56,404 bases of DNA, taken from positions 1-56,404 of the forward strand of contig DASWJH010000076.1 of the NCBI GenBank assembly GCA_036397255.1, given 5' to 3'. The translations under genes and the position numbers were made by a program. Each line of letters opens with the position of its first letter. Within the stretch, counting starts at the first letter, position 1. Source of the DNA: Nitrospiria bacterium. Its GTDB lineage: Bacteria > Nitrospirota > Nitrospiria > DASWJH01. The notes beneath the pieces were generated by a model. That model saw only the letters and a list, made by a program, of their open reading frames with translations. It made no database searches and was not told where the DNA came from. Shown piece after piece: positions 45,594 to 56,404 of this stretch.

Positions 45594-46631
45594 ATGTTAA
45601 AAAATGAACTGTTTTTAAAAGCCTGTCGCCGAGAGGGGGTGGATCAAACCCCTGTTTGGATTATGCGGCAAGCGGGCCGGTATATGAAGGAATACAGAGA
45701 GTTGCGTAAAAAAGTGGATTTCCTGACCCTTTGCAAAACCCCCGAGCTGGCCCTGGAAGCCTCCATGTTACCCGTGGAGATTTTAAAAATTGATGCTGCT
45801 ATCCTTTTTTCGGATATTTTAATTCCTGTTGAGGCCATGGGGATGGATTTGAGTTTCACCGATAGTGGTCCTGTTTTGGGGAATCCTATACAAAATGAAG
45901 AGCAGGTGGAATCTTTAACCGTTCCTTTGGTGGAAGAGAAGCTGTTTTTTGTTTTCGATGCCATCCGCCTGATTCAAAAAACCTTAGAAGGTCGCCTTCC
46001 TCTTCTTGGGTTTTCCGGAGCCCCTTATACGTTGGCAACCTATATGGTTGAGGGTCGGACGTCCTCAAACTTTTACAAAATCAAAAAATTGCTTTTTAGC
46101 CGGCCAGACCTTGTTCATACACTTTTTAAAAAACTGACCGAAACGGTTACGAGATACCTCCAATTACAAATTAGAGCCGGTGTTCAGGCTGTACAACTTT
46201 TTGATACCTGGGCGGGAACCCTCTCTCCGGAGACCTATCGGGAATTTGCCCTTCCCTATACCCAACAAATTGTTGAGAGCCTTCGCCCCGAAGGCGTTCC
46301 CATTATCCTTTATGTCAATGGTGGCGGGGGCCTTTTGGAACTCATGGCCGGGTCTGGGGTGGATGTGGTGAGCATTGATTGGCGAGTGGATATAAAGGAG
46401 GCCAAAGAAAGAATTGGCAGCCGAGTTTGTCTTCAGGGAAACCTTGATCCCTGTTTTTTATACGGTAACCCTGCGAATATCCGGCGGGAAGTGAAAAGAA
46501 TTCTGGAAGGTTTTGGTCGTGGAAACGGCCATATTTTTAATTTAGGTCATGGCATTCTTCCCGATACTCCGGTAGAAAATGCGATTGCTCTGGTTGAAGC
46601 GGTTCATGAAGAAAGTCGGTGTTTTCATTAG
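45594..46631 (+). CDS. hemE: uroporphyrinogen decarboxylase
   Basis: Converts uroporphyrinogen III to coproporphyrinogen III in heme synthesis. The family blocks are PVWIMRQAGRYMKEYR (near the N-terminus), GFSGAPYTLATYM, FDTWAGTLSP and NLGHGILPDTP. Length 345 aa is standard. It lies about 30 bp after the MBL-fold gene and is followed by hemH and hemY, in the hemEHY order known from Bacillus. Confidence 0.98.
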   Translation: MLKNELFLKACRREGVDQTPVWIMRQAGRYMKEYRELRKKVDFLTLCKTPELALEASMLPVEILKIDAAILFSDILIPVEAMGMDLSFTDSGPVLGNPIQNEEQVESLTVPLVEEKLFFVFDAIRLIQKTLEGRLPLLGFSGAPYTLATYMVEGRTSSNFYKIKKLLFSRPDLVHTLFKKLTETVTRYLQLQIRAGVQAVQLFDTWAGTLSPETYREFALPYTQQIVESLRPEGVPIILYVNGGGGLLELMAGSGVDVVSIDWRVDIKEAKERIGSRVCLQGNLDPCFLYGNPANIRREVKRILEGFGRGNGHIFNLGHGILPDTPVENAIALVEAVHEESRCFH

Positions 46632-46664
46632 TGTGTTTCCCACGGTTTAAGGTGTCATAATCCC

Positions 46665-47666
46665 ATGTCCAACACTGATATGCAACCGATTGGTGTGGTG
46701 TTGCTTAACCTCGGGGGCCCTGATTCCCTGGATGCTGTTGAACCCTTTCTTGTAAACCTTTTTTTAGATCCGGATATCCTTCCCTTTCCTTTTGGTCGTT
46801 TTGCTCGGTCCTTTTTAGCCCGTACCATTGCCCGAAGACGGGCAGAAAAGGTAAAAGAATACTATCGAAAAATCGGAGGGGGTTCTCCCATTTTCCCTTT
46901 GACCCGAAAGCAAGCGGAAGGGTTGGAGAAGGAGTTAAAATCCCAGGGTAATTTTAAAGTTTTAATTGCCATGCGTTATTGGCACCCGACCACCGAAGAG
47001 GCAATTGACCAAATGGGCAGGTTGAATTTAAAAAGGGTTGTTTTGCTGCCCTTGTATCCTCAATTTTCAACGGCCACCACGGAGTCTAGTTTTAAAGAGT
47101 TTGAGAGGGTTCGGAAAGAAAAAGGGGGAGAGAATTGGGAGGTTTTAAAAATTCCTCATTGGTACGACCATCCTTTGGTCATCGATTCATTGGTGCTTCA
47201 AATTAAAAATGCCCTTCAAAATATTCCAGTGTTGGAAAACCAACCGCTTCATATTGTTTTTTCCGCTCACGGGGTTCCGCTTCGTTTAATCCAAAAAGGG
47301 GATCCCTATCAAAATCAGATTGAAGAAAACGTGAGGTTGATTGGACAATCTTTGGGCGGGTCCTATCCGATCCACCTGTGTTATCAAAGCCGCGTGGGCC
47401 CTTTAAGATGGACGGGTCCTTCCACGGATGAAATGCTGAAAGACCTTGCGGCTCATGGGGTTAAAAACCTCCTGATGATTCCGATCAGTTTTGTCTCCGA
47501 CCATTCTGAAACGCTCTATGAAATGGATATTTTGTATCGGGACTTGGCGCACCAACTGGGAATCCATGGGTTTCATCGGATGCCTTCCCTTAACGATTCT
47601 CCAGCATTTATAAAAGCGCTATCTGGCATTGTGGTCGATTCTTGTCACTCGAACCGTTGGTTATGA
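46665..47666 (+). CDS. hemH: ferrochelatase
   Basis: Inserts iron into a porphyrin to make heme. The blocks GVVLLNLGGPDSLDAVEPFL, PLYPQFSTATTES, FSAHGVPL and PISFVSDHSETLYEMD are characteristic. Length 333 aa. Sequence alone does not show whether the substrate is protoporphyrin or coproporphyrin. It overlaps hemY by four bases. Confidence 0.97.
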   Translation: MSNTDMQPIGVVLLNLGGPDSLDAVEPFLVNLFLDPDILPFPFGRFARSFLARTIARRRAEKVKEYYRKIGGGSPIFPLTRKQAEGLEKELKSQGNFKVLIAMRYWHPTTEEAIDQMGRLNLKRVVLLPLYPQFSTATTESSFKEFERVRKEKGGENWEVLKIPHWYDHPLVIDSLVLQIKNALQNIPVLENQPLHIVFSAHGVPLRLIQKGDPYQNQIEENVRLIGQSLGGSYPIHLCYQSRVGPLRWTGPSTDEMLKDLAAHGVKNLLMIPISFVSDHSETLYEMDILYRDLAHQLGIHGFHRMPSLNDSPAFIKALSGIVVDSCHSNRWL

Positions 47667-49048
47667 AGGTTTCCCAGAAAACGGTTATTGTGGTGGGAGG
47701 GGGGATTTCCGGTCTTTCCATCGCTTATGGGTTAAGAAAATTGGGTCATTCTGTTCGTCTTTTGGAAAAAGAAAAAGTGCCCGGTGGGTTTGTGAAAAGT
47801 TATTTTCATGAGGGGTACCTGGTGGAAGCAGGCCCCAACAGTACCCTCGATCAGCATGAAGAGGTTCAAACACTATGTTCAGACTTAGGTTTGGATGAAA
47901 GCCGTATTCCGGGAAACCCCGTTTCCAAAAAAAGGTACCTGGTCAAAAATGGAAAGTTGATCGCTGTTCCTTTGGGTTTTGGGGCCTTTTTAAAGACGGA
48001 CCTTTGGAGTATGCGCGGAAAACTCCGGCTTTTGAAAGAACCCTTCGTCAAAAAAGGGGAAGAAAAAGACGAAAGTGTCGCATCCTTTTTTGAAAGACGA
48101 TTGGGCCGAGAAATGGTTGAGTATGGTATCGATCCGTTTGTTTCAGGAATATATGCAGGAGACCCTTGCCGGTTGTCTGTTCGAAGTACTTTCCCTCGAT
48201 TGTTTAATTTGGAGCAGGATTATGGGAGCTTGCTGAAGGGGGTTTTGTTCAAGGGAAAGAAAAAAAGAAAAGAGACCCAAAAAGGTCTTTTTTCTTTTAA
48301 AAGCGGGATGGGTGAACTCACCCAGGGTTTATCTCATTGGTTGGGAGAATCGGTTCAATCGGGCTGGGAGGTCAAGGAGTTAGATTATCAAAATAATCCT
48401 CCCAAAATAACGGTGAAAGGGGTAACCCAAAATCGAGGGGTGGCGTGCGATGGGGATGCAGTGGTTTTGGCTACCCCCGCTTATTGGACCTCCCATTTGA
48501 TCCATCCGTTATGCGTTTCACTTTCAGAACATCTGAAGGGTATTCACTATGCTCCCATAGCCATGGTTTTCTTGGGGTTTGATCGGACTGCCATTCAACA
48601 TCCGTTGGATGGGTTTGGTTGTTTGATTCCCTCCCGGGAAGGCTTTGACCTTTTGGGGTCACTTTGGAATTCGACCTTATTCCCGGGCCGTGCTCCCGAA
48701 GGTTGCATTGCCACCACTAATTTTCTGGGGGGTGCGAGAAAACCCGAAATTTTGGAAGCTTCCGATGAACAATTGATCGATATCGTGATCAAGGAGTTAA
48801 ACCAGTTGATTGGAGTTCAAAAAGCTCCTCAATTTTCGAAGGTGATCCGGTATCCTTATGCCATTCCACAATTTCAGTTGGGTTACACTGAAAAAATAAT
48901 TCAAATTGAAAAACGTTTAGAAGATTTTCCTGGAATTTTTCTTGGAGGAAATTTCCTGAAGGGTGTTTCAGTTGCTGATTGCATTTTAAACGGGCTTCAC
49001 CTTTCAAAAAAGGTTGATGCTTTTTTTGCAGTGAAGGATGGGGGTTGA
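47663..49048 (+). CDS. hemY: protoporphyrinogen / coproporphyrinogen oxidase (HemY type)
   Basis: FAD-dependent oxidase that removes six electrons from a porphyrinogen. The N-terminal FAD motif is GGGISGLSIAYGL (about 12-24). A C-terminal block, IFLGGNFLKGVSVADCI, is typical of HemY. Length 461 aa from the ATG at 47663, which overlaps the hemH stop (ATGA). The frame can be opened upstream, but this start is the natural one. In the hemEHY arrangement the enzyme may act on coproporphyrinogen III (CgoX role). Confidence 0.94.
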   Translation: MKVSQKTVIVVGGGISGLSIAYGLRKLGHSVRLLEKEKVPGGFVKSYFHEGYLVEAGPNSTLDQHEEVQTLCSDLGLDESRIPGNPVSKKRYLVKNGKLIAVPLGFGAFLKTDLWSMRGKLRLLKEPFVKKGEEKDESVASFFERRLGREMVEYGIDPFVSGIYAGDPCRLSVRSTFPRLFNLEQDYGSLLKGVLFKGKKKRKETQKGLFSFKSGMGELTQGLSHWLGESVQSGWEVKELDYQNNPPKITVKGVTQNRGVACDGDAVVLATPAYWTSHLIHPLCVSLSEHLKGIHYAPIAMVFLGFDRTAIQHPLDGFGCLIPSREGFDLLGSLWNSTLFPGRAPEGCIATTNFLGGARKPEILEASDEQLIDIVIKELNQLIGVQKAPQFSKVIRYPYAIPQFQLGYTEKIIQIEKRLEDFPGIFLGGNFLKGVSVADCILNGLHLSKKVDAFFAVKDGG

Positions 49049-49457: not shown

Positions 49458-50135
49458 TTGAAGGCGGTTCAGGGGTTTCAAATTTCAAAGGGTTACCACC
49501 ATTTTCAGGTTCTGAGAGAGGTTTCTTTTGAGGTTGAAGAGGGGGAATGTTTTGCTTTGTTTGGCCCTAACGGAGCCGGAAAAACCACCCTTTTAAAAAT
49601 ATTATCAACGCTTCAACGTCCAACCTCCGGGACCTTTCAGATGATGGGGTTGGATGGGGTGAAAGACCGGGATAAAGTTCGAAATTTATTTTTACTCGTA
49701 GGGCATGGATCCTACCTTTATAATGAATTGGATGCCCTTGAAAATATAAATTTTTCTTTGGCTCTCAGGGGGATTTCCCGAACGGATCAAGAAGTAAAAA
49801 AGGCTTTGGATCGGGTGGATATCGGTCCATTTGCCAGATTTAAAGTGCGGGCATTTTCAGAGGGGATGAAAAAACGGTTGGCTATGGCCAAAACCATTTT
49901 GGTTCACCCCAAGGTTCTCCTGTTGGATGAGCCTTACTCTGCTTTGGATGAATCCGGGATGGGCCTTGTGAATCAATTTATGAAGGACATCACAGAACAG
50001 GGAACTGCAATTTTAATGACTACCCATAATCGAACGAAAACAGCCGAGGTAGCCCATCGGGCCGCCTGTCTTCAGCAAGGGGTAATGAAGGAAATTGCTG
50101 TTCAGGAGCTGGTGGAGGCCCATGAGCTTTTTTAG
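49458..50135 (+). CDS. ccmA: heme exporter ATPase CcmA
   Basis: ATP-binding subunit of the CcmABCD complex that loads heme on CcmE. Walker A GPNGAGKTT, signature FSEGMKKRLAMAK, Walker B LLLDEPYSALDE and TTHNRT are present. Length 225 aa. Starts with TTG at 49458, nine bases after AAAGGAG. It ends inside ccmB (14-bp overlap). Confidence 0.93.
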   Translation: MKAVQGFQISKGYHHFQVLREVSFEVEEGECFALFGPNGAGKTTLLKILSTLQRPTSGTFQMMGLDGVKDRDKVRNLFLLVGHGSYLYNELDALENINFSLALRGISRTDQEVKKALDRVDIGPFARFKVRAFSEGMKKRLAMAKTILVHPKVLLLDEPYSALDESGMGLVNQFMKDITEQGTAILMTTHNRTKTAEVAHRAACLQQGVMKEIAVQELVEAHELF

Positions 50136-50799
50136 AGTGGTCCGATGGGTCATCTGGAAGGATTTAATATGTGAGATTCGGGGGCGAGAAATGATCTCAT
50201 CCATGTTTTTCTTTGCCCTAATTGTTATTTTAATATTTAGTTTTAGCTTTTCCATGGACCAACAAATGGTAAAAAGCCTAATGGGTGGGATCATTTGGGT
50301 GGCCTTTGTTTTCACTGGCATTATCGGTTTGGGAAAGTCCTTTTTATCGGAGACCGAAAATGATTGTTTGGAATGTCTTCAAATGAGTCCTATCCCAAGA
50401 ACGGCAATCTACGTTGGAAAGTTGGTGAGCAATTTCTTTTTTATGTTAATTGTTGAGGTCATTTTATTTCCTTTGTTTGTGATCTTTTTTAATTTGGATG
50501 TGGTTGATAAAATTCCGATTCTCATGATAATATTTGTTCTGGGTTCTTTTGGGCTTTCCGCTCTTGGAACCCTTTTCTCCGCCATGACGGTTCAAATCCG
50601 GGCAAGGGAGGTTTTACTTCCCGTTCTTCTTTTGCCCCTGGCGGTTCCTTTAATTATTGGATCGGTAGAGGCAACAAGGGGTGTTCTCAGTACCGACCCT
50701 TTTTCGTTTTATAGGCATTGGATGGAATTGGTGGTTATTTTTGATGTGGTTTTTACAATTGTATCTTTTTGGGTTTTTGAGTTTATAATGGATTACTAA
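50122..50799 (+). CDS. ccmB: heme exporter membrane subunit CcmB
   Basis: A 225-aa integral membrane protein with six hydrophobic segments, starting MSFFRVVRWVIWKDL. The family block ETENDCLECLQMSPIPRTAIYVGKL (about 75-99) is present. The frame extends upstream, but the ATG at 50122 follows GGTGGAGG. It lies between ccmA and ccmC, as in standard Ccm operons. Confidence 0.92.
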   Translation: MSFFRVVRWVIWKDLICEIRGREMISSMFFFALIVILIFSFSFSMDQQMVKSLMGGIIWVAFVFTGIIGLGKSFLSETENDCLECLQMSPIPRTAIYVGKLVSNFFFMLIVEVILFPLFVIFFNLDVVDKIPILMIIFVLGSFGLSALGTLFSAMTVQIRAREVLLPVLLLPLAVPLIIGSVEATRGVLSTDPFSFYRHWMELVVIFDVVFTIVSFWVFEFIMDY

Positions 50800-50823: not shown

Positions 50824-51540
50824 ATGATCATTGGTTTTTTTCGTCGATTTGAGGGATGGTTTGGGGTCTCAGGAGCCCTCTGCGTGTTAACCGGCCTTTA
50901 TCTGGCATTGGTCAGTTCACCCCCTGATTATTATCAAGGGGAGGTGGTTCGAATTATGTATGTTCATGTTCCCTTGGCCAAAACTTCATTATTGGCTTAT
51001 ACTACTCTTTTTTTTGGGAGCCTTTGGTATCTTTGGAAACGAGATCCAATGGTTGATAATATGTGTCGGGCAGCTGCGGGTATTGGTGTGCTTTTTACCG
51101 CTGGAGCCCTCATTACCGGCTCTATTTGGGCCAAACCCACCTGGAATACCTGGTGGACCTGGGATGCCCGGTTAATTTCTTTTTCGATTTTGTTACTCAT
51201 TCTGATGGGTTATTTGATGTTAAGGGCGTTTATGGATGATAAAGAAAAGGAAGCCCGGTATGCTGCCGTGTTTGCCATCGTGGGGTTTGTGGACCTTCCC
51301 ATCGTCTATTTTTCAGTGGAATGGTGGAGAACACTTCATCAACCCGCATCGGTTTCAATGAGAGGACTGAGTCTTTCTGCGGAAATATTTTTTCCATTAA
51401 CGATCATGGCGGTGGGTTTTTTATTCCTCTTTATTTATTTAATAAGCGTCCGGACTCAAATGATTTATTTGGAAGAACTTTTAGAGGCCAAACAGGGAAG
51501 TTTGTTAAATAAAGGGGGGGAAGTAATCAAAAGCGCGTGA
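50824..51540 (+). CDS. ccmC: heme-handling protein CcmC
   Basis: A 238-aa membrane protein of the heme-handling family (six helices). The tryptophan-rich WWD motif is in the segment IWAKPTWNTWWTWDARL (about 101-117); two likely heme-ligand histidines flank it (YVHVPLAK and the late HQPASVSM region). It loads heme onto CcmE and is the third gene of the ccm group, with a four-base overlap (GTGA) to the next gene. Confidence 0.95.
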   Translation: MIIGFFRRFEGWFGVSGALCVLTGLYLALVSSPPDYYQGEVVRIMYVHVPLAKTSLLAYTTLFFGSLWYLWKRDPMVDNMCRAAAGIGVLFTAGALITGSIWAKPTWNTWWTWDARLISFSILLLILMGYLMLRAFMDDKEKEARYAAVFAIVGFVDLPIVYFSVEWWRTLHQPASVSMRGLSLSAEIFFPLTIMAVGFLFLFIYLISVRTQMIYLEELLEAKQGSLLNKGGEVIKSA

Positions 51541-52028
51541 ACCTGTTCTATCTGCGATGGTTTATCATTTTTTTCGCTGGGGCTGTCATTGTTGGCTTTG
51601 GGGTCCAGCGGTATATTGATGAGGTGACCACCATCACTCCGAAAGAGGCTTTACAGCAAGAATCCGGGAAGGTCGTGAGGGTGATGGGGACTCTCCAAGG
51701 GGGCAGTCTTCTTCGGAATGTTTCGCCCAAAGAAACAACCTTTTTGCTCTCGGGAGAGGGGGTTGAGCTTCCCGTTCGCTATTCAGGGCCGCCTTCCGAT
51801 AGTCTAAGGGAACTAAAAACCTTGGTGGTCATTGGAAGTTGGAATCCTTCAGATCAGGAATTGAAATCACAGAGTTTAGGGTTGGTTCCAAATTATGGTT
51901 TTATTTCAGCCGCTTATATAGTTACATTTTTTCCAATGATTCTTTTTCTCTTTCATATGGAACGCAAGGTCCGGTTGTTGTATATTGAAATCAAAGAAGC
52001 CAAAGCCTACAAACCGGAGGAGAGGTGA
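51537..52028 (+). CDS. CcmE-like OB-fold protein with C-terminal CcmD-like helix
   Basis: A 163-aa protein. N-terminal membrane anchor (about 5-22), then a beta-rich segment (ESGKVVRVMGTLQGGSLL ... VELPVRYSGPPSD) resembling the CcmE OB domain, then a membrane helix and basic tail (FFPMILFLFHMERKVRLLYIEIKE) that resembles CcmD. The conserved His and Tyr of CcmE are absent, so covalent heme carriage is not expected. It occupies the place where ccmD would normally lie. I infer a CcmE-CcmD fusion or functional replacement. The start is GTG, overlapping ccmC. Confidence 0.7.
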   Translation: MNLFYLRWFIIFFAGAVIVGFGVQRYIDEVTTITPKEALQQESGKVVRVMGTLQGGSLLRNVSPKETTFLLSGEGVELPVRYSGPPSDSLRELKTLVVIGSWNPSDQELKSQSLGLVPNYGFISAAYIVTFFPMILFLFHMERKVRLLYIEIKEAKAYKPEER

Positions 52029-52029
52029 T

Positions 52030-52479
52030 TTGAGTAAGAATAAGCGATATGGCCTGATTATCAGCATGTTGATCGTTGGGGTAGCATTAGGGTACTTGGC
52101 GTTAGGGAATTTTGGAGAAAACCTGGTTTACTTTTTTACCCCCTCGGAAGTGATTGCCCTCTCCAAAGAATATTACGGTAAAAAGGTCAGAGTCGGAGGA
52201 ATGGTAGTGGAGGGCAGCCTAAAGGTGGTTCCCAATACACTCAAAATGACTTTTGAATTAACGGATGGTGAAAATCAAATTCCGGTGGCTTTTGAGGGAA
52301 TTCCCCCTGATTTGTTTAAGGAGGGCCAAGGGGCCGTGGTGGAAGGGTTTTGGGACACGGAGAAAACGTTTCGCTCTCATATGATCATGGCCAAACATTC
52401 CGAGGACTATATGCCCATTGAATTAAAACAAGCGGGGGTTCAATTGCCCAAAAAGGATTTTATTAAAACGCTTCAATAG
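52030..52479 (+). CDS. ccmE: cytochrome c maturation heme chaperone CcmE
   Basis: A 149-aa heme chaperone with one N-terminal membrane anchor (about 8-26) and an OB-fold domain. The covalent heme site is AKHSEDY: His123 with Tyr127, matching His130 and Tyr134 of E. coli CcmE. The reading frame extends upstream within the previous gene, but the TTG at 52030 lies directly after the previous stop (52028) with AGAGGTGA upstream. It carries heme from CcmC to CcmF. Confidence 0.93.
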   Translation: MSKNKRYGLIISMLIVGVALGYLALGNFGENLVYFFTPSEVIALSKEYYGKKVRVGGMVVEGSLKVVPNTLKMTFELTDGENQIPVAFEGIPPDLFKEGQGAVVEGFWDTEKTFRSHMIMAKHSEDYMPIELKQAGVQLPKKDFIKTLQ

Positions 52480-52574: not shown

Positions 52575-54521
52575 ATGTTTGTTGATATTGGTAATTTTGC
52601 CGTTGTAACAGCGCTGGTTTTGTCTTTGGTGGGAATCGTAACACCCATCATTGGCCTCAAAACCAAAAACCCTGCCTGGGTCCAGGCCGGGCGACAAGCG
52701 GTTACCCTCATTTTCTTTCTGTTGTCCATCGGAATGATTTCTCTTGTTTTTGCCTTTGTAACAAGAGATTTTTCCGTGAAATATGTGATGGCCACCTCCA
52801 ACAGCCGGCTTCCTTGGTTTTACACCGTTGCGGCACTTTGGGGGGGGCATGAAGGCTCTTTATTACTTTGGGTTTGGATTTTGGCAACTTTTTGTACGGT
52901 GGCCGCATGGCTTCACTGGAGAACCCAACCCGCGATCATACCCTATCTTTTATCTATCCAGTCTTTGGTTATGTTTGGGTTCCTTTCGCTTATTGTATTT
53001 CTTTCTAACCCATTTGATCGAATCTTTCCGGTTCCACTAGAGGGAAAGGATTTAAATCCACTCCTTCAGGATCCTGCCATGGTGGTTCATCCGCCACTTC
53101 TTTATCTTGGATACGTTGGATTTTCCATTCCTTTTGCCTTTGCCATGGCGGCTCTTCTTTCAGGGCGTTTAGGAGAAGAATGGTTAAAGGTAACTCAACG
53201 ATGGACTCTTTTTGCTTGGTTTATGTTAACGGCCGGAATTATGATGGGGGGGTATTGGGCCTATTACGAGTTGGGGTGGGGGGGGTATTGGGGTTGGGAT
53301 CCCGTTGAGAACGCATCCTTCATGCCCTGGCTGGTGGGAACGGCCTTTCTTCATTCGGTCATGGTTCAAGAAAAACGAAAGATGTTTAAAGTTTGGAATA
53401 TCTTTTTAATTATTGTGACCTTCTCTCTTTCCTTAATCGGAACTTTCCTGGTCCGTAGTGGGGTTCTCTCTTCTGTACATACCTTTGCCACCGATCCAGG
53501 CCGGGGTCTTTATATTCTTGCCTTTTTAACGGTGATTTTGGGTTTTTCTTTTGGGACACTGATTCTGCGTTCCCATAAATTAAAAAGCGAGGTGGAGTTA
53601 GATTCGGTTGTTTCCAGGGAATCGATGTTTCTTTTTAATAACCTTTTTTTTCTCATTGCCATGGTTACGGTTTTTCTTGGAACGTTATACCCGCTTTTGG
53701 TTGAAACCCTTCAGGCCAGCAAGGTTTCGGTGGGGCCTCCTTACTATAATGCTGTTTTTATGCCCATTGCACTAGGATTGGTTTTATTAATGGGGATTGC
53801 CCCTTCAATTTCTTGGCGAAAGGCTTCGGGGGAAAATATCCGGAAAAACTTTTTGATTCCATCCCTTGTGGCCTTGGTGGGTTTAATCGTGGGTTGGGGA
53901 GTAGGGGTACGGAATGCCTACGCATTAGCGGGGGTCACTGTGGTAAGCTTTGTGGCGGCAACTATTTTTATTGATTTTGGGAAAGTCTCTTCCTTTTGGG
54001 CAAAGCGTAATCAGGTTCATTTTCTAAAGGGGTTGACCACTGCTTTTTCTAAAAATCAGCGCCGGTATGCAGGCTTAGTGACCCACTTTGGCGTCTTGGT
54101 CTTAATTATGGGAATCATCGCCTCCACTATCTATCAGACCGAAAAAGTGGTTCCTATGAAAATAGGTGATCAACTTCAGTTAAAGCAGTACACCCTGACC
54201 ATGGTGGATCTGCGGGAAGTACAAGGCCCAAACTGGACCGCCCAGGAGGGAGCTTTTGATGTATACCGGGGGGAGACTTTTATTACCACCCTGCATCCTC
54301 AAAAGCGGATTTATCCGGACTCCCAGACTCCCACTACGGAATCTGCAATTTATACCATACGCCTGGGCCACCTTTTTTTAACCATGCCGGAAATATCTCC
54401 TGAAGGGGTCATTGTGAGGGCGTTGGTTAACCCACTGGTTCTTTTGGTTTGGATAGGTGGGGGAATTATGGGTTTAGGCGTTTTATTGAATATTTTCCGG
54501 CCCAGAAGGGAGCCGACGTGA
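52575..54521 (+). CDS. ccmF: cytochrome c heme lyase subunit CcmF
   Basis: A 648-aa polytopic membrane protein (about 13-15 helices) that attaches heme to apocytochrome c. The WWD heme-handling motif is in GGYWGWDPVENASFMPWL (about 230-247). Also GGHEGSLLLWVW near residue 90. Length is typical for CcmF. It overlaps ccmG by four bases (GTGA). Confidence 0.97.
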   Translation: MFVDIGNFAVVTALVLSLVGIVTPIIGLKTKNPAWVQAGRQAVTLIFFLLSIGMISLVFAFVTRDFSVKYVMATSNSRLPWFYTVAALWGGHEGSLLLWVWILATFCTVAAWLHWRTQPAIIPYLLSIQSLVMFGFLSLIVFLSNPFDRIFPVPLEGKDLNPLLQDPAMVVHPPLLYLGYVGFSIPFAFAMAALLSGRLGEEWLKVTQRWTLFAWFMLTAGIMMGGYWAYYELGWGGYWGWDPVENASFMPWLVGTAFLHSVMVQEKRKMFKVWNIFLIIVTFSLSLIGTFLVRSGVLSSVHTFATDPGRGLYILAFLTVILGFSFGTLILRSHKLKSEVELDSVVSRESMFLFNNLFFLIAMVTVFLGTLYPLLVETLQASKVSVGPPYYNAVFMPIALGLVLLMGIAPSISWRKASGENIRKNFLIPSLVALVGLIVGWGVGVRNAYALAGVTVVSFVAATIFIDFGKVSSFWAKRNQVHFLKGLTTAFSKNQRRYAGLVTHFGVLVLIMGIIASTIYQTEKVVPMKIGDQLQLKQYTLTMVDLREVQGPNWTAQEGAFDVYRGETFITTLHPQKRIYPDSQTPTTESAIYTIRLGHLFLTMPEISPEGVIVRALVNPLVLLVWIGGGIMGLGVLLNIFRPRREPT

Positions 54522-55075
54522 TCCGTTTTTGGCATATTGTTTTGGTGGTTTGTTTTTTTGGTCTGATCACCCTTTTTTACAAAGGATTGTGGGGGGACCC
54601 TCGAAGTATTCCAACCATATTGGTTGGGACCCAAGCCCCAAATTTTTCAGGGCCGGAGGTGGGAACCGAAACGTCGATTTCTTTAAGTGATTATCAGGGA
54701 AAAGTTGTCATGGTCAACTTTTGGGCCTCCTGGTGTTTAGAATGTCGCTATGAGCATGAAAATCTTCTGGCTATTCAAGACCGGTTTGGAGGAAACCCGG
54801 ATTTTGTCATGCTCGGTATCAATTATCAGGACAAAGAAAAAGATGCCCTGGAATACCTTGGGATCCACGGAAGCAACTTCAGACATGTGCGGGATGTGAA
54901 GGGGGCTATTTCCATCGATTTTGGGGTTTATGGGGTTCCCGAAACGTTTGTGTTTGACCAACAAGGAATCATTCGTTTTAAGTTTGTGGGGCCCATTATG
55001 GGTGCTACCTATACCCACGTTGTTGAAAATGTTCTTCAACCCTTATTAAGAAAAGAAACTCCTTCCGTTTCATGA
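54518..55075 (+). CDS. ccmG: thiol:disulfide interchange protein CcmG (DsbE type)
   Basis: A 185-aa membrane-anchored thioredoxin (single N-terminal helix, then WASWCLEC, Cys73 and Cys76). Keeps apocytochrome c or CcmH thiols reduced for heme attachment. The active site is CLEC rather than the usual CxPC, with ECR following, which may alter redox potential. The GTG start lies inside the ccmF stop, AAGGGAG six nt upstream. CcdA (34521-35264) is the likely source of electrons. Confidence 0.93.
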   Translation: MIRFWHIVLVVCFFGLITLFYKGLWGDPRSIPTILVGTQAPNFSGPEVGTETSISLSDYQGKVVMVNFWASWCLECRYEHENLLAIQDRFGGNPDFVMLGINYQDKEKDALEYLGIHGSNFRHVRDVKGAISIDFGVYGVPETFVFDQQGIIRFKFVGPIMGATYTHVVENVLQPLLRKETPSVS

Positions 55076-55545
55076 TTTGGATCCTTCCTTTCATTATTTT
55101 TTCCTCTTTTACCTTTCCGATCGTATCGATGGGAAATGTGATTGATGAAAGAAAAATTGATCTTCAAGTCCGGGATTTAGCCAAAACCCTTCGCTGCGCG
55201 GTTTGTCAGAATGAGTCCATTTGGGAATCCAATGCAGAATTGGCCAAGCAGATGCGGGCGATTATTCGGGAGCGGTTGGAGAAAGGGGAATCTACCGAAG
55301 ACATTCGTGCCTATTTTTTAAGCCGGTATGGGGATTACATCCTTTTGAAACCTCAAAAAAAGGGTCTCAATTGGCTATTATGGGGTGGTCCATTCCTCCT
55401 TCTTTTGGTGGGTGGGGTGATTCTCTACCGAACCTTGGGGAAATGGGTTAGGGAGACCCAGAAAGAAAAGCCAGAAGGGGTTCCCTCTATCGATGAATCC
55501 TCACGCAAACGGATCGACCAGGAACTACGGAAATTCCGAGAATAA
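55072..55545 (+). CDS. ccmH: cytochrome c maturation protein CcmH
   Basis: A 157-aa protein. N-terminal signal-like segment, then the conserved LRCAVCQNESI motif (Cys42 and Cys45), which binds and reduces apocytochrome c, then a C-terminal membrane anchor (about 102-123). It overlaps ccmG by four bases. CcmI follows 14 bp later. Confidence 0.95.
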   Translation: MIWILPFIIFSSFTFPIVSMGNVIDERKIDLQVRDLAKTLRCAVCQNESIWESNAELAKQMRAIIRERLEKGESTEDIRAYFLSRYGDYILLKPQKKGLNWLLWGGPFLLLLVGGVILYRTLGKWVRETQKEKPEGVPSIDESSRKRIDQELRKFRE

Positions 55546-55559
55546 GGAGGGGAGGGTTC

Positions 55560-56404
55560 ATGTTTGTCATTGTAGTGGGTTCTCTGTTAGCCGGTACCGT
55601 TCTTTTTTTAGCCTACCCTTTTTTAAAGACCATTGAGGTGCAGGGGGACTTTATTCATGATCTTTCTGAAGATCAAGAAAAAATTGATTTAGAAATCGAA
55701 AAAGAATCCCTTCTTCATTCCCTATCCGAATTAGAAGATGAGAGGGTGCAGGGAAAATTTTCAGAAACTGATTATTTAAAATTAAAAGCCATCGATGAAT
55801 ATCGCTTCGCAAAAGTTCTCAACCGTCTGGATCAATTAACACCCCATTCTAAAACGGCTCCATTTGCCAAAAGTTCAAAAACACCCAATACCGCACCCGG
55901 TACGGGTTGGGCCTTTGCGGTTACCTTAGGTGTTTTGGTTATGGGGGGATCCGCGGGAATTTATTCTTTTTTACATTGGAAGGAAGGGCAAACCCGAAAT
56001 GCGGCTCAACCAATGGCCCAGGCTTCGATACCAGGCATGCCCAACCCTTTGGAAATGGTTGCCCGTTTAGAGGAGCGGTTAAAAGAGAACCCCAATGATC
56101 TCCAGGGACAAATTTTGGCGGGGCGCTCCTACCTGGCATTAAACCGGGTTGAGGAGGCAAAGAGGGCATGGGAAAAAGTGGTGGAATTGGATCCCAGAAA
56201 TCATGAAGCCCATTTTAATGTTGCAGTCATTCTCATTGAAACCGCTGAGACCGGCCAGCTGCCTAGCTATGAGAATGCCCTGACTCATTTGGAAAAGGCC
56301 TTGGTTAAATTTCCGAGGGAGCCCGCTCTTTTATGGTACAAAGGACTTGCTTTGGTACATCTTCAACGATTTTCAGAAGCCGATGAAAGTTGGACAACCG
56401 CTTT
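55560..56404 (+). CDS. ccmI: CcmI-like TPR protein (cut by window end)
   Basis: A reading frame of at least 281 codons runs off the right edge. N-terminal hydrophobic helix (about 1-20), a charged coiled segment (about 30-95; KESLLHSLSELEDERVQGK is the CcmI-type YxxALxEL-like part), a second membrane helix (about 117-137), and a TPR region from about residue 155 (LAGRSYLALNRVEEAKRAWEKVVELDP). CcmI captures apocytochrome c and hands it to CcmF/CcmH. Start ATG at 55560 follows a strong GGAGG. It is the last gene seen in this operon. Confidence 0.9.
   Translation, partial: MFVIVVGSLLAGTVLFLAYPFLKTIEVQGDFIHDLSEDQEKIDLEIEKESLLHSLSELEDERVQGKFSETDYLKLKAIDEYRFAKVLNRLDQLTPHSKTAPFAKSSKTPNTAPGTGWAFAVTLGVLVMGGSAGIYSFLHWKEGQTRNAAQPMAQASIPGMPNPLEMVARLEERLKENPNDLQGQILAGRSYLALNRVEEAKRAWEKVVELDPRNHEAHFNVAVILIETAETGQLPSYENALTHLEKALVKFPREPALLWYKGLALVHLQRFSEADESWTTA

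Follow-up and report, generated by a model that had tools for sequence, protein, structure and literature searches.

Which gene supplies CcmD in a System I operon whose place between ccmC and ccmE is taken by a second, CcmE-like gene? CcmD is needed for the release of holo-CcmE but is dispensable for its formation (PMC9084895, PMC6204919); its role has been called enigmatic (PMC6204919), and ccmD has been called universally present in bacterial genomes (PMC9084895). The question is raised by a contig of a Nitrospiria genome (3.35 Mb, 97.5% complete, 122 contigs). By the window we mean the whole stretch of DNA analyzed here, contig 76, with a length of 56,404 nucleotides. At its right end lies a System I operon in the order ccmA, ccmB, ccmC, the gene under study, ccmE, ccmF, a ccmG-like gene, ccmH and a ccmI-like gene. 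An earlier note, made from the sequence, had described the product of the gene under study as a second OB-like membrane protein that lacks the essential His and Tyr of CcmE and ends in a helix resembling CcmD.

The ccm operon of the window

The genes of the operon, all on the forward strand, are as follows.
49458..50135, +, ccmA (TIGR01189 over cut-off)
50095..50799, +, ccmB (Pfam CcmB, E 3e-38)
50824..51540, +, ccmC, predicted partner of the fusion protein (TIGR01191 over cut-off)
51537..52028, +, CcmE-like/CcmD-like fusion gene (163 codons, 163 amino acids, GTG start)
52030..52479, +, true ccmE, heme chaperone, TTG start (Pfam CcmE, E 1e-32)
52575..54521, +, ccmF (Pfam CcmF_C, E 2e-78)
54449..55075, +, ccmG-like thioredoxin (Pfam AhpC-TSA/Redoxin)
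55072..55545, +, ccmH (Pfam CcmH, E 7e-38)
55560..56402, +, ccmI-like TPR protein, truncated by the contig end (Pfam TPR families)

Judging from the sequence, ccmB probably begins at the in-frame ATG of position 50122. The GTG of the fusion gene overlaps the ccmC stop by 4 nt, and a single base separates the stop of the fusion gene from the TTG of the true ccmE. The true CcmE carries the HxxxY motif as HSEDY (H123/Y127), and CcmC retains the equivalents of D47, Q50, R55, H60 and H184. Before the operon, at 45594-49048, we assigned by reading uroporphyrinogen decarboxylase-like, ferrochelatase-like and protoporphyrinogen oxidase-like genes; since these heme-biosynthesis-like genes precede the ccm operon, heme synthesis and heme delivery appear to be encoded adjacently.

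The fusion gene across Nitrospirota

A search of 295 genomes of the phylum found 38 that match the fusion protein at E<=0.001, and in 35 of them, counting the window genome, both domains are encoded as one full-length protein. Three genomes of a group labelled f17 were rejected, as they contain cross-matches to true CcmE only and no fusion. The survey of related ccm operons that the earlier note had called for places the fusion gene in the position of ccmD in all 35 genomes: ccmC lies immediately upstream in 35/35, 16 of the first 30 sharing the 4-nt overlap, and ccmE follows within 183 nt in 33/35, at 1.1 kb in one locus (L024) and at ~1.9 kb in one genome (G081). Because these genomes are related, they do not stand for 35 independent events.

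A scan with the motif [PT]NYGF[IV]xxAY, a single pattern that would overlook divergent fusions, found 38 loci on contigs named Nitrospirota, Nitrospirae, Nitrospiria, Nitrospira, Nitrospirales, Manganitrophaceae or Manganitrophus. Among these motif loci, two (L080 and L082) come from metagenome bins labelled Nitrospinota, which may be mislabelled Nitrospirota or reflect a transfer. At a Nitrospirales locus (L094), a transposase-like ORF recognized by eye (L094:4573-5700, - strand) and a second small ORF (L094:5877-6281) stand between the fusion gene and ccmE and break up an operon that is elsewhere compact; the heme-ligand motif is present in the CcmE of this locus.

Anatomy of the fusion protein

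The window protein is divided as follows.
51549..51614, +, N-terminal membrane anchor of CcmE type, residues ~5-26 (AlphaFold2 helix 2-30; weakly constrained)
51615..51887, +, periplasmic OB domain, CcmE homologue without the heme tail, residues 27-117 (Pfam CcmE, hhalign, Foldseek)
51786..51818, +, CcmC-docking loop kept, residues 84-94, GPPSDSLRELK (D88/R91/E92 = E. coli CcmE D101/R104/E105)
51888..52025, +, CcmD-like part, residues 118-163, PNYGF..AY membrane helix and charged tail (profile comparison)

In the AlphaFold2 model (30 relatives in the alignment, pLDDT 87), a helix (residues 2-30) is followed by a five-strand barrel (46-115) and a further helix (120-157), and one membrane helix with a charged tail stands where CcmE has its heme-binding tail. 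Identity in at least 33 of the 35 fusion proteins is found at 24 residues. No histidine is conserved in the family, the best column having one in 15/35.

The barrel is a CcmE homologue. Pfam CcmE (PF03100) aligns residues 33-112 of the window protein with profile positions 5-86 of 99 (E 6.1e-9; 36.6 bits vs a cut-off of 24.6), and since the match ends at position 86 of 99, it supports the OB domain and leaves the heme-ligand end of the profile uncovered. The same profile matches 30/30 fusion relatives scanned (best E 7e-13), the comparison of the fusion barrel with true CcmE by hhalign gives 98% (E 2.7e-14), and the top PDB match of the model in Foldseek is 8ce8_E, E. coli CcmE in the CcmABCDE complex (E 2.0e-7). 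Alignment of model residues 1-117 with E. coli CcmE by VIA-align yields Z 11.9 and an rmsd of 3.2 over 114 residues; because many unrelated OB folds score equally high with the fusion model (Z 10-12), we judged CcmE identity by sequence, not by fold. These matches uphold the earlier assignment of a second OB-like membrane protein between ccmC and the true ccmE.

In E. coli, CcmE R73, D101 and E105 associate with CcmC D47, Q50 and R55, and the release of holo-CcmE is affected by CcmE R104 together with CcmC Q49 (PMC6204919). The D101 equivalent is acidic in all 35 fusion proteins (24 D, 11 E), the R104 equivalent is R in 35/35, the E105 equivalent is acidic in 34/35 (29 E, 5 D, 1 A), and the R73 equivalent is basic in 13/35 (0/34 among the own CcmEs of these genomes). 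CcmC D47, Q50 and R55 are present in 30/30 fusion genomes checked. The equivalents of F37, K129, H130 and Y134 occur in 0/35 fusion proteins vs all four in 34/34 own CcmEs, the 35th of which, in G081, sits outside the locus read and is not counted. The barrel also retains R61 and V110-type positions, which belong to the heme site formerly proposed for CcmE (PMC6204919). The fusion protein thus shares with CcmE the OB domain, the N-terminal anchor and the D101/R104/E105 docking residues, and is excluded from the functional CcmE class because the H/CxxxY ligand tail is absent in 35/35.

The absence of the essential His and Tyr noticed in the window protein therefore extends to the whole family, with one refinement. 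Residue 120 is Tyr in 32/35 and Phe in 3/35 fusion proteins, and in the profile alignment it falls on the Tyr17 position of E. coli CcmD; by this alignment, the near-invariant Y120 is part of the CcmD-like segment and distinct from the ligand of CcmE.

The C-terminal part as a remote relative of CcmD

E. coli CcmD binds CcmC only, and its Tyr17 adjoins a residue in the heme motif of CcmC with which it has coevolved (PMC9616876). We compared a profile of the C-termini of all 35 members with CcmD families by hhalign and obtained 94.9% with the CcmD of the f17 genomes, 72.6% with a short CcmD-like type, 95.0% with both pooled and 16.4% with standard CcmD (E. coli/Nitrospira type). A separate comparison gave 94.6% (E 7e-8) with f17 CcmD and 93.2% with a pooled CcmD set, and direct comparison with E. 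coli/Nitrospira-type CcmD gave 11-16% across runs. Controls with the CcmE N-terminus, the CcmC C-terminus, the fusion N-terminus and the fusion barrel were all <1%. Among themselves, the CcmD subfamilies score 2.9% (short vs standard type) and 57% (f17 vs standard). When columns were permuted against f17 CcmD, the highest scores were 15.8 in 60 class-preserving and 13.0 in 60 free permutations (best probability 5.3%), the real score being 36.9; against standard CcmD, 1/60 free permutations (18.3) matched the real score of 18.0. A genome-wide search with the C-terminal profile returned, in each of the three f17 genomes, a sole match, the ORF between ccmC and ccmE (E 0.011-0.024), and recovered no CcmD in the other 20 of the 23 unfused genomes searched.

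None of the 30 fusion members scanned reaches the Pfam CcmD cut-offs (PF04995, PF20077). At E<=1, PF04995 matches 10/30 members (best E 0.0051), CcmD_alt 2/30 and NdhL 4/30. PF20077 (CcmD_alt) aligns with residues 125-146 of the window protein under its cut-off, and has no match over cut-off in the 295 phylum genomes; f17 CcmD is likewise under the Pfam CcmD cut-off. Being under the curated cut-off, the C-terminal part is named CcmD-like here and kept outside the Pfam family. CcmD begins in the periplasm, crosses the membrane with a single helix and extends into the cytoplasm (PMC10457321), and the predicted C-terminal helix (120-157) together with the charges in the sequence agrees with this layout (one helix, N-out/C-in, charged cytoplasmic tail), the orientation being a prediction. 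By remote homology and position, the C-terminal part appears to be a distant relative of CcmD, connected through the f17 and short CcmD-like families. The resemblance proposed in the earlier note is thus real at the level of remote kinship, close to f17 CcmD (~95%) and faint when textbook CcmD is compared directly, whether pairwise or by profile (only 11-16%).

Separate ccmD genes and their complementary distribution

In the window genome, PF04995 finds nothing at E<=0.1 and PF20077 at E<=1 matches only inside the C-terminal helix of the fusion protein (E 0.44). The operon had been said to have no separate ccmD, and these two profiles found no standard ccmD anywhere in the genome; the OB match has likewise held up in structure prediction and profile comparison (30/30 relatives match CcmE), and the helix is CcmD-like.

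Across the phylum, true CcmE was counted at E<=5.1e-20, which gives 99/295 genomes (the other 21 of 120 matching genomes are partial or weak and were left out). Pfam CcmD is present in 50 of the 99, the fusion in 35, f17 CcmD in 3 and a CcmD-like ORF right after ccmC in 9, and the remaining two (L110 and L112), whose stretch was read without ccmC, were placed in no class. A separate CcmD or CcmD-like ORF is therefore found in 62/99 genomes, and the overlap between the fusion and Pfam-level CcmD is 0 genomes among the 99. The 50 Pfam-CcmD genomes are identical to those of the f2/f12 CcmE block.

The f17 CcmDs (3 genomes) have 53-55 residues, lie between ccmC and ccmE, and match PF04995 under its cut-off (E 0.0012-0.026). 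The CcmD-like ORFs of the other classes (9 genomes) encode 46-69 residues directly after ccmC; they are L052:911-1063 (-) and the ORFs after ccmC in L108, L109, L111 and L113-L117. Several of these short proteins contain ..GAYTxAWLGVSxYLY.., and since both Pfam CcmD cut-offs missed them, Pfam-based surveys would score their genomes ccmD-less. Weak PF04995 matches fall within the fusion C-terminus in G268, G240, G183 and G119 (E 0.02-0.08) and outside the fusion in some fusion genomes (strongest in G081, E 0.001), none of the latter over the cut-off.

A second CcmE-like match in Nitrospiraceae-like (f2) genomes (E 1e-4 to 3e-6) was considered as a divergent fusion and rejected. At four f2 loci it is a short OB protein that lies away from the ccm genes, has no C-terminal membrane helix and is unrelated to the fusion. 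These OB-fold-like proteins, each with a signal-like N-terminus and a weak CcmE profile match, are as follows.
L043:5917-6360, -, short OB-fold-like protein
L044:5855-6298, -, short OB-fold-like protein
L045:5854-6291, +, short OB-fold-like protein
L053:5772-6158, -, short OB-fold-like protein
They are found near a gene containing QYVNFAFYKVDPAWRRLP, which is putatively chlorite-dismutase-like.

Origin and selection

In a tree of 68 rows (30 fusion, 38 CcmE; a wrong-frame ORF, E_L047, was excluded) and 94 columns, a long branch supported at 100/100 sets the fusion barrels apart. This single clade fits one origin followed by inheritance. Among eight close genomes, the median dN/dS is 0.185 for the barrel and 0.196 for the CcmD part (28 pairs each), 0.068 for the own CcmE (21 pairs) and ~0.67 for the N-terminal anchor, the last being noisy (26 usable pairs). 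Both halves are under purifying selection, and the value for the barrel indicates that it is constrained and not decaying freely.

Discussion

We consider it likely that the gene encodes a CcmD fused at its periplasmic end to a degenerate CcmE, and that it stands in for ccmD in the genome and, most likely, for CcmD on CcmC. The two-domain anatomy, the synteny, the single origin, the distribution complementary to separate CcmD, the loss of the heme tail with the docking residues kept and the purifying selection form the basis of this reading. We infer its membrane topology, its binding to CcmC and its competition with CcmE as follows. An anchor helix with its N-terminus inside would lead into a CcmE-type OB barrel in the periplasm, from which the chain would enter the CcmD-like helix, running from out to in, and end in a charged cytoplasmic tail; the CcmD-like helix would substitute for the flexible, heme-carrying tail of CcmE. 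This helix would occupy the site of CcmD on CcmC, and because E. coli CcmD binds CcmC with Tyr17 adjoining the heme site where CcmE docks, the barrel would be held over the CcmC heme site. The CcmE helix is known to contact CcmB, and the CcmE barrel is predicted to move over the heme motif of CcmC (PMC10457321). Between cycles, the heme-inert barrel might fill the CcmE-docking surface of CcmC and, after heme attachment, help displace holo-CcmE, which is the release or reset role assigned to CcmD. That the barrel acts as a docked CcmE mimic, competing with CcmE and promoting the release of holo-CcmE, is a tentative proposal; it narrows the scaffold role suggested in the earlier note to a heme-inert mimic docked on CcmC. 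We are a little more doubtful of the idea of a tethered decoy, heme-dead and with a docking face, that would repeatedly bind CcmC and expel holo-CcmE, making release in this clade a matter of built-in competition.

The barrel might instead be a structural spacer, a relic that sets membrane topology while the C-terminal part alone works. The lost heme tail, the seemingly weak constraint on the N-terminal anchor and the stronger selection on the own CcmE (dN/dS 0.07 vs 0.19) would suit such a relic, but the barrel has the same dN/dS as the CcmD part (medians over 28 pairs), and the same residue stands at ten barrel positions (R48 to G100, with L90, R91 and K94 of the docking loop included) in 33-35 of 35 proteins. 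We therefore regard a mere spacer as unlikely. Less probable still is a second, specialized heme chaperone, whose barrel would bind heme non-covalently or relay it to particular cytochromes above a generic C-terminal anchor. Clear homology to CcmE and the retained R61 and V110-type heme-site positions speak for it; however, the equivalents of F37, K129, H130 and Y134 are absent in 35/35, a helix stands at the place of the mobile tail in the AlphaFold2 model, and the gene substitutes for ccmD instead of accompanying it.

We give equally little weight to a CcmE paralogue with an unrelated second membrane helix, in genomes where CcmD would be absent or undetected. Direct CcmD matches do fall under the curated cut-offs, with hhalign to standard CcmD at 11-16%, in favour of this reading; yet the 95% profile match to the f17 and short CcmD-like proteins comes with clean controls, the CcmD subfamilies are as distant from each other (2.9% for short vs standard), and both the operon slot and the complementary distribution point to CcmD.

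Compared with known systems, the fusion protein is like CcmD (PF04995, PF20077, E. coli CcmD) in its position between ccmC and ccmE, its one membrane helix with a charged tail, the aligned Tyr17 position (32/35 Tyr, the rest Phe) and, through f17 and the short CcmD-like proteins, a remote profile similarity. It differs from CcmD in the preceding membrane anchor and CcmE barrel, in falling under the Pfam cut-offs and in its ~160 residues; CcmD lengths range from 37 to 100 residues at the extremes (PMC12077264). With CcmE (PF03100; E. coli 1sr3/8ce8_E) it shares the membrane anchor and OB barrel, a Pfam domain over cut-off and the CcmC-docking loop, whereas it has no HxxxY heme tail, F37 or K129, ends in a CcmD-like helix and coexists with a complete CcmE. 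The E. coli CcmH-CcmI fusion (PMC3601427) is likewise a natural joining of two System I partners, but its domains are not described there as degenerate, whereas in the present fusion one of the two lacks its ligand, with a complete version of that partner encoded alongside. System I* with its CXXXY CcmE and the archaeal CcmABCEF also vary System I around CcmE and CcmD (PMC3601427, PMC9084895); they do so by a changed CcmE ligand or the lack of CcmD, unlike the present case, in which CcmE keeps an intact HxxxY motif and CcmD is part of a fusion. A table of PMC3601427 gives no known variant of CcmD, and an alignment of CcmD from 44 organisms includes Nitrospira among its classes (PMC12077264). 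In the open-licence literature searched, judged mostly by titles and the beginnings of abstracts, we found no description of a CcmE-CcmD fusion: the parts are known, and the combination of a CcmD-like part with a heme-dead CcmE is undescribed in that literature.

The fusion bears on how these genomes are annotated. Surveys of ccmD by Pfam cut-off will call fusion genomes ccmD-less, and their second 'CcmE' may be misannotated as a heme chaperone. In a bacterial lineage that includes Manganitrophus and several Nitrospirales, a fusion to a heme-dead CcmE that retains its docking face sits in the slot of CcmD. This fusion makes a physical link between CcmD and the docking of CcmE and offers a testable idea of CcmD-driven release. 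If the decoy reading is true, the release role of CcmD would be to clear or reset the site at the CcmC heme motif where CcmE docks.
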